The position numbers and the translations under genes are program-made. This document shows positions 19,656 to 21,909 of a stretch of 64,000 bases of DNA, in pieces. The stretch covers positions 1 through 64,000 of the forward strand of contig NZ_QUNG01000008.1 in NCBI RefSeq assembly GCF_003387375.1, read 5' to 3'. How positions within the stretch are numbered: position 1 is the stretch's first letter; each line of letters starts with the position of its first letter. The notes under the pieces were generated by a model. The model ran no database searches and had not been told where the DNA came from. It was given only the letters and a program-made list of their open reading frames with translations. The stretch is from Marinomonas pollencensis. Its GTDB lineage: Bacteria > Pseudomonadota > Gammaproteobacteria > Pseudomonadales > Marinomonadaceae.

Positions 19656-20432
19656 TCAGTCGATGTTGTATTCCATGATCAATGGCGCATGGTCAGAGAA
19701 GCGCTGGCCTTTGTAGACACTGCCGCCTTGTACTAGGTGCTTGATGCCTGGCGTGGTAATTTGGTAATCCAAACGTCCACCTTCATCCAGTTTCCAAGCG
19801 CGTTCATAATCCGGCCACCAAGTGTATTGCTTGTCTTGTTTGTTCACCTGACGAAAAGCATCAACGTATTCAAGCTCATTAAAGATTTCGTTAATCCACT
19901 TGCGCTCTTCAGCTAAGAAGCCGGAATTACGCTGATTAACAAACCAGCTGCTTACGTCAATTGGCGAACGCGCGACATTGGCGGTTCCACAAAAAATAAA
20001 CTCACGACGTTTGCGACGCGTTTTGATTAGGTGGTTTTTAAAACCTTCCATAAAGCGGTATTTGTGTTCTTGTAGCTCGTTTTCATGGTTTGACCCATGT
20101 GGCGTTAAGAAAGCACCAATACTGACCTTATCGAAGTCAGCTTGAATAAAGCGCCCTTCAAAGTCGCATTCAGGAAAACCCATGCCTGTCATAATTGCTT
20201 TAGGCATCGTCTTGCAATAAATGGCCACACCTGCTTGCTCTGGATCTTCCAATGAGTCAAAAAAGTAAGTGTTGTAGCCAGGTGGAAAGAAGACGCTGTC
20301 ATTCAGGCTGCGTTCGTCTGCTTGAATATCTTGCAGGCAGACAACATCAGGGTCCTGACGAACCATCCACTCGAAAAAGCCGCGATCGGCTGCTTGTCTT
20401 ATACCGTTTACATTAAGGCTGATGACCTTCAT
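19656..20432 (-). CDS. crc: catabolite repression control protein Crc (ExoIII-fold)
   Basis: A 258-aa protein with the exonuclease III/EEP fold that matches Pseudomonas Crc better than Xth[25 protein letters not shown] and [14 protein letters not shown] are Crc-like, and the gene is divergent from pyrE exactly as in Pseudomonas. Crc acts with Hfq to repress translation of catabolic mRNAs. Active-site residues of XthA are partly lost: the LQE Glu is Asp35, and the GDxN Asp is Thr150. Asn152, Asp222 and Asp247-His248 remain. It is thus unlikely to be a full nuclease, though residual activity cannot be excluded. Generic annotation would call it exodeoxyribonuclease III. Confidence 0.85.
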
Positions 20433-20549: not shown

Positions 20550-21203
20550 ATGAAACCTTACCAAAGAGAATTTATCGAGTTCGCCATTGAGCAAAATGTA
20601 TTGCGTTTTGGCGAGTTTACACTCAAATCTGGCCGTGTAAGCCCTTACTTCTTTAATGCAGGCTTATTTAATTCAGGGCAAGCATTAGCAAAGTTAGGTC
20701 GCTTTTATGCGGCCGCATTAATGGAAGCTAATGTTCCATTTGATGTTCTGTTTGGCCCTGCTTATAAGGGCATTCCGTTAGCAACCACAACCGCGGTGGC
20801 GTTGTTCGATCACCATGATGTGGACACACCTTATGTTTTCAACCGCAAAGAAGCAAAAGCGCACGGTGAAGGTGGTTCTCTTGTGGGTGCACCTTTGGCC
20901 GGTAAAGTCATGATCATTGATGACGTTATTACCGCGGGTACTGCCATTCGAGAAGTCATGGCTATTATTCAACAAGCAAAAGCCGTTCCGGCTGGCGTGC
21001 TGATTGCCCTAGATCGTCAAGAACGTGGTCAAGGCGAGCTATCTGCAATCCAAGAAGTCGAACGTGACTTCGCTATGCCAGTGGTCAGTATTGTTTCTCT
21101 TAATGACATCATGACCTACTTAGCAGAACAAGCAACGCCTGAGTTTGCTGAGCATCTTGATGCTGTTAAAGCGTACCGTCAACAGTATGGGATCGAATCC
21201 TAA
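20550..21203 (+). CDS. pyrE: orotate phosphoribosyltransferase
   Basis: De novo pyrimidine synthesis: orotate plus PRPP to OMP. The PRPP loop [18 protein letters not shown] and the substrate segments [19 protein letters not shown] and [11 protein letters not shown] are intact. The ATG at 20550 has GGAG five bases upstream and gives 217 aa, matching the family. The upstream in-frame extension overlaps crc and lacks the family sequence. Divergent from crc, sharing a 117-bp promoter region. Confidence 0.96.
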
Positions 21204-21843: not shown

Positions 21844-21909
21844 CTATCTATTGTTCCCAAACTCGTTATTGTTAATATGTTGTGTTGAAAAACGTGTTTT
21901 ACAAGCCGC

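Follow-up and report, generated by a model that had tools for sequence, protein, structure and literature searches.

The crc locus

The window analysed here is the whole stretch of 64,000 nucleotides from Marinomonas pollencensis. The gene of interest in this window, crc, is divergent from its neighbour pyrE; the coordinates of both genes, and of the codons discussed below, are collected in Table 1. The protein matches Pfam PF03372 and has the exonuclease III/EEP fold. Among solved structures its best relative is Crc of P. aeruginosa (4jg3, E 3e-78), and its second best is Neisseria NApe (E 5e-62 to 7e-62). The predicted fold, modelled from a 34-sequence alignment, has a mean pLDDT of 93.7; when the model is superposed, the best chains are those of Crc, with a Z of 41.4, followed by NApe at 40.0, which is 1.4 Z lower. 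The protein scores 198 bits against the NCBIfam exodeoxyribonuclease III model TIGR00633, whose cut-off is 99, and slightly under the cut-off of TIGR00195; a TIGR00633 score above the cut-off is no proof of catalysis. The count of promoter-like sequences near crc is at chance level.

Table 1. Coordinates of the genes and codons discussed in the text. Counts refer to alignment rows, either in the Crc clade or with an intact nuclease site.
Feature	Position in window	Strand	Remarks
crc (P0001), 258 aa	19656..20432	-	ATG start, real open reading frame
D247-H248, kept	19689..19694	-	D in 15/60, H in 57/60 Crc rows
D222, kept	19767..19769	-	60/60 Crc, 131/131 intact rows
N152, kept	19977..19979	-	N in 30/60 Crc rows; Tyr or His in f21 rows and P. 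aeruginosa
T150 (GDxN Asp in nucleases), lost	19983..19985	-	D in 131/131 intact, 2/60 Crc rows
K141-R142-R143 (Pseudomonas K139-R140-R141), RNA patch	20004..20012	-	72/72 Crc rows, one with R at 139
K137 (Pseudomonas K135), RNA contact	20022..20024	-	60/60 Crc, 28/131 intact rows
L109 (active-site Tyr in nucleases), lost	20106..20108	-	Y in 131/131 intact, 3/60 Crc rows
K78-A79 (Pseudomonas K77-A78), RNA/Hfq contact	20196..20201	-	K or R, then A, in 72/72 Crc rows
D35 (catalytic Glu in nucleases), lost	20328..20330	-	E in 131/131 intact, 0/60 Crc rows
pyrE, divergent neighbour of crc	20550..21203	+	ATG at 20550

Sequences compared

Our comparison draws on 56 relatives, 54 of which matched at 1e-20; on 48 genomes of the family, all 48 of them from a single genus; on 293 genomes of the order, among which 242 matched at 1e-20; and on 274 genomes of the class, which were searched with a profile of intact enzymes and gave a match at 1e-40 in 214 cases. 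Eighty stretches were taken for comparison among the matches listed, and loci were added from three sources: 80 ranked by their similarity to an intact enzyme, 30 from the class search, and 26 from another search. Before any counts were made, we set aside NApe, as an engineered mutant, together with three XthA rows of other types (L002, L106 and L107). The figure of 131 rows with an intact catalytic site counts identical rows once, and 5 of the 30 genus rows enter the larger trees. The rows on both sides of the comparison are top-scoring hits, and a real intermediate could escape such sampling.

Placement of the window protein

A quick tree of 198 rows unites 60 of them in one Crc clade with a support of 100. 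This clade stays intact, with 60/60 rows and a support of 99, after the removal of 41 trait columns, catalytic and interface positions among them, and it grew to 72 rows from 31 family codes when 27 rows were added. A careful tree of 54 rows, 25 of them Crc, gives the clade a support of 100/99. Since it is a single clade nested among NApe-type AP endonucleases with an intact site, and since its rows hold together without the trait columns, the earlier note's idea that Crc descends from AP endonucleases is upheld. The deep backbone support in the careful tree is low, and the nearest nuclease relative of Crc is thus not fixed by the tree.

The Crc identity proposed for the window protein likewise survives placement on a Crc/XthA tree. 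The protein falls inside the Crc clade along with P. aeruginosa Crc, and clustering with XthA fails: a tree in which the window genus is forced to lie with the other endonucleases is worse by 99.6 log units (AU p 2e-49). Within the clade, the genus groups with family f37, with a support of 100/97 in the careful tree and of 79 without the trait columns. A tree in which the genus splits off first from the remaining Crc rows is still allowed (AU p 0.187), and the exact branching within Crc may thus be different; a transitional status of the window protein, by the measure of its residues, is not supported.

Residues of the catalytic site

The full catalytic set of the nucleases comprises N7, Glu, Tyr, Asp, Asn, Asp, Asp and His, and three of these eight residues are lost from the window protein. 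The earlier note had listed N152, D222, D247 and H248 as kept, and the Glu and the GDxN Asp as lost at D35 and T150. Alignment to P. aeruginosa Crc and NApe confirms each of these states; it also places N7 and N9 among the kept residues, and it adds a third loss, L109 in the place of the Tyr, that is absent from the note. All 30 genus rows examined (L001 and L003-L031) are identical at every one of the catalytic positions noted, in an alignment in which 65 of the 258 columns vary within the genus. Their agreement excludes a sequencing accident or chance as the cause of the residue states.

The same losses run through the Crc rows: the Glu is lost from 60/60, the GDxN Asp from 58/60, and the Tyr from 57/60, and a single change on the tree is needed for the loss of Glu35. 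Pseudomonas D220 and H246 are kept in 60/60 and 57/60 rows, respectively. The Asn at N152, present in half of the Crc rows, requires 10 or more changes within the clade; the Asp at Pseudomonas position 245 (D247 in the window protein), present in a quarter of them, requires at least 6, and parsimony allows a regain of D247. Because both residues vary repeatedly inside the Crc clade, N152 and D247 mark no intermediate stage.

Different remnants of the site are found in other Crc rows; the Tyr, for example, is kept by two f8 rows and one f37 row. The combination in the window protein is one of 37 seen in the clade at six positions, and its residues D-T-N-D-D-H (at the Glu, Asp, Asn, Asp, Asp and His positions) recur in L036, which belongs to another family, f37. 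The two Crc rows that form the exceptions at the GDxN Asp, L103 and L105, are without the Asn and the Glu. In these two and in L241, L242, L244 and L246, all rows of the Crc clade from families f5, f15 and f23, the GDxN Asp is present and the Asn has become Gln or Gly; the Asp may have been either regained or kept.

According to PMC3662782, P. aeruginosa Crc is without nuclease activity and keeps two of four catalytic residues (D220 and H246), with Ser and Tyr150 replacing the Asp and the Asn. The window protein keeps three of the four residues scored in that study, plus D247. It is conceivable, then, that we are dealing with a bifunctional intermediate, that is, with an Hfq partner whose pocket of N7, D35, N152, D222, D247 and H248 retains some metal-dependent nuclease or phosphatase activity. 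All members of this pocket other than D35 are kept, D35 itself could still hold a metal, and the phosphate place contains no Tyr, unlike P. aeruginosa with its Tyr150. However, the GDxN Asp, the Glu and the Tyr are all gone, and N152 and D247 vary from row to row within the clade as if weakly constrained. Moreover, the GDxN Asp is replaced by Asn, a change that we take to be D149N, in the NApe structure PDB 4b5h, which is described as that of an inactive mutant. We consider such an intermediate quite improbable, and it seems to us that N152, D222, D247 and H248 do not make up a working site but have survived as remnants or for structural reasons.

Residues of the Hfq/RNA interface

PMC9890229 gives the basic patch of the cryo-EM structures as K77/K135/K138/K139/R140/R141 (Pseudomonas numbering). 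According to PMC6422490, the 2:4:2 complex has the A78 amide in contact with Hfq Thr49, and repression in P. aeruginosa is abolished by R140E. We scanned our alignment for columns that are at least 90% fixed in the 60 Crc rows while reaching no more than 50% in the 131 intact rows, and only six columns were returned: K77, A78, K135, K139, R140 and P205. The core of interface residues used below consists of K77, A78, K135, K139, R140 and R141, of which R141 was added to the scan result; it is present in 60/60 Crc rows, yet also in 116/131 intact rows. Five of the six core residues belong to the published RNA patch, and the sixth, A78, contacts Hfq. As for position 205 (P207 in the window protein), the Ser of WWSNRG stands there in 131/131 intact rows and a Pro in 57/60 Crc rows; the Arg at position 207 is lost in 60/60 Crc rows.

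We defined the core on the 60 rows before applying it to the 27 new ones, where it was found in 12/12 rows of the clade versus 0/15 outside it; three of the 12 belong to f15, a family already represented. If either K or R is accepted at 77 and at 139, the core is present in each of the 72 Crc-clade rows, and the whole core in 0/149 rows outside the clade. The full catalytic set, by comparison, is found in 149/149 rows outside (146 of them distinct) and in 0/72 rows inside.

The window protein has all six core residues, as K78, A79, K137, K141, R142 and R143. The description of this protein as caught between a nuclease and an RNA-regulatory form is therefore not supported: it combines the three losses that mark the clade, at the frequencies given above, with every one of the six interface residues.

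Outside the core, a number of Pseudomonas contacts are changed in the window protein: K155 to P157, R162 to F164, E193 to Q195, R196 to K198, R229 to K231, R230 to H232, F231 to L233, and R233 to Q235. The P. aeruginosa dimer triangle E142-R229-R230 is represented by E144, K231 and H232, and the contact of E142 with R229/R230 is altered. This triangle is no defining feature of the clade, R230 being Arg in just 13/60 Crc rows, and the columns of the changed contacts vary all over the clade. One might read the altered dimer and second-patch contacts, along with the failure to find CrcZ (RF01675) in the organism's own genome, as signs of a Crc-clade protein that has taken on another role, independent of Hfq, in this genus. 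We hold this to be highly improbable, given that the six core residues are fixed in the genus (30/30 rows) and that the core columns show 0 or 1 change inside the clade, versus 7-19 per column on the whole trait-free tree.

Predicted function

Because of its clade, its lost catalytic set and its kept interface residues, we regard the window protein as very probably a bona fide Crc, a co-repressor acting with Hfq and RNA and lacking nuclease activity. Its membership in the Crc clade, its three lost site residues and its six kept interface residues can be read off the sequence itself. An Hfq gene is present in the same genome. The protein would bind A-rich (ARN)n RNA on the distal face of Hfq, and the K78/K137/KRR patch and the A79 strand would form the surface in contact with the RNA laid out by Hfq. 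In this way it would strengthen the repression by Hfq of mRNAs for less preferred carbon sources, that is, it would serve in carbon catabolite repression. AP endonuclease work would be done by the separate intact XthA of the genome. This second copy (L002) has the full catalytic site, as read for that row, and a second exonuclease III-type gene is present in 47/48 genomes of the genus, the exception being a genome that is 77% complete.

Linkage to pyrE and intact nucleases

Synteny with pyrE had been offered in the earlier note as a mark of Crc. Although pyrE does lie beside 69/71 of the Crc-clade loci used in the trees, 68/131 rows with an intact site are pyrE-linked as well. Because intact nucleases sit there too, pyrE synteny is no proof of Crc.

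The motif [KR]RR at 139-141 is already present in 49/131 intact-site rows, namely in 27/68 of those linked to pyrE and in 22/63 of those not linked or not determinable. Either part of the surface for Hfq and RNA would predate Crc, in enzymes with an intact site, or the 139-141 stretch may be merely prone to basic residues. The best intact rows (4/131) reach five of the six core residues. These four endonucleases are L041 (from f22), L127 and L199, which are pyrE-linked, and L123, for which no pyrE was found within its stretch; their residues suggest that they are the best candidates for a nuclease already touching Hfq.

Several genomes contain, besides a Crc at pyrE, an intact NApe-type enzyme at another locus (L043/L044, L046/L047, L048/L049 and similar pairs). 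Such two-gene genomes occur in families f47, f40, f13, f31, f9, f4 and f42; in the other families just one of the two genes was seen.

CrcZ and RNA motifs

In the tree, P. aeruginosa Crc is surrounded by rows of family f21. CrcZ (RF01675) was found in 6/6 genomes of this family and in 0/8 genomes from outside it, the window organism's own included, where an RNA unlike the model would be missed. That is, among the 14 genomes tested, CrcZ was found in Pseudomonadaceae alone, and it is no defining feature of the Crc protein. PMC8871633 describes the Cbr system with crcZ as unique to Pseudomonadaceae.

A pattern search for a CrcZ-like RNA with three CA motifs, in which the spacing was guessed and no positive control was available, gave 0 matches, and an Rfam scan of the window found nothing at gathering scores. 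CA motifs number 27 in the window, versus 17.1 by shuffling. The sequence AACAATAA, at 21866-21873 on the minus strand and roughly 23-30 bases upstream of the start of slmA, is a possible Hfq-Crc target motif, or else a chance occurrence.

Comparison with known systems

Compared with Pseudomonas Crc (P. aeruginosa 4jg3/4f1r; Hfq-Crc-RNA 8bvm, 8bvj), the window protein is 46-47% identical by structure alignment, with a Z of 39-41. The two have in common the pyrE locus, the core RNA/Hfq patch, and the loss of the Glu, Asp and Tyr. They differ in that the window protein keeps N152 and D247, where P. aeruginosa Crc has Tyr and Gln, in that it is without several of the dimer and second-patch contacts, and in that its genome gives no match to CrcZ. 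With the NApe-type AP endonucleases (Neisseria, 2jc5, 4b5f-m) the window protein has in common the fold and framework elements such as NQxNSGFL, and, for such enzymes in many Gammaproteobacteria, the pyrE locus as well. The NApe-type enzymes have the Glu, the Tyr and the GDxN Asp, whereas the window protein has lost all three; it is also more acidic, with a net charge of -7 versus a mean of -0.2 for the 149 outside rows.

The Acinetobacter 'Crc', a pyrE-linked xth gene, has its locus and its name in common with the window gene. The A. baumannii gene (L223:2962-3786, plus strand) is annotated xth and was studied with two relatives, L224 and L225; pyrE linkage was observed in L223 and L224 but not in L225. 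Both relatives, too, have all eight catalytic residues, are without the core and group outside the Crc clade. In contrast to the window protein, to which it is 37% identical, the Acinetobacter protein has the full catalytic set and no patch (its core reads V-S-Q-E-N-K), and it lies outside the Crc clade. Its grouping with Pseudomonas Crc is rejected (AU p 0.0076), and a sister-group relation to the entire Crc clade is still allowed (AU p 0.211). The 'crc' qPCR primers given in PMC8312277 match the A. baumannii gene with 0 mismatches in the forward and four in the reverse primer, and the pyrE-linked gene is most likely the one called crc there. In PMC2907835, A. baylyi Crc is cited as proposed to affect transcript stability and is just 38% identical to P. 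stutzeri Crc. In the literature within reach, which excludes most subscription journals, we found no account of the residue history described here and nothing that questions the Acinetobacter gene as Crc; this is weak evidence of absence.

Discussion

The window gene is an ordinary new member of Crc. For the history of the family as a whole, we propose a scenario whose chances we consider evenly balanced. Crc would have arisen once, from a pyrE-linked AP endonuclease whose relatives often had part of the basic patch; the six interface residues would have become fixed when the Glu and the GDxN Asp were lost, and would have been kept since then in the 31 family codes. Repression by Hfq and Crc would thus be order-wide, mostly without CrcZ, and would be released by another antagonist, and the Acinetobacter 'Crc' would be a nuclease with an intact site that stands outside this system.

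Partial retention of the active site, it follows from the counts above, is no guide to Crc function, and neither pyrE synteny nor annotation as exodeoxyribonuclease III can separate Crc from the nucleases. In the rows examined, the six interface residues and the lost Glu do separate them. Doubt is thereby cast on the naming of the Acinetobacter gene as Crc; if its product is indeed a nuclease with an intact site, this could explain its reported action on transcript stability. Which organisms have catabolite repression by Hfq and Crc, and what its antagonist is outside Pseudomonas, become questions that can be tested by sequence.
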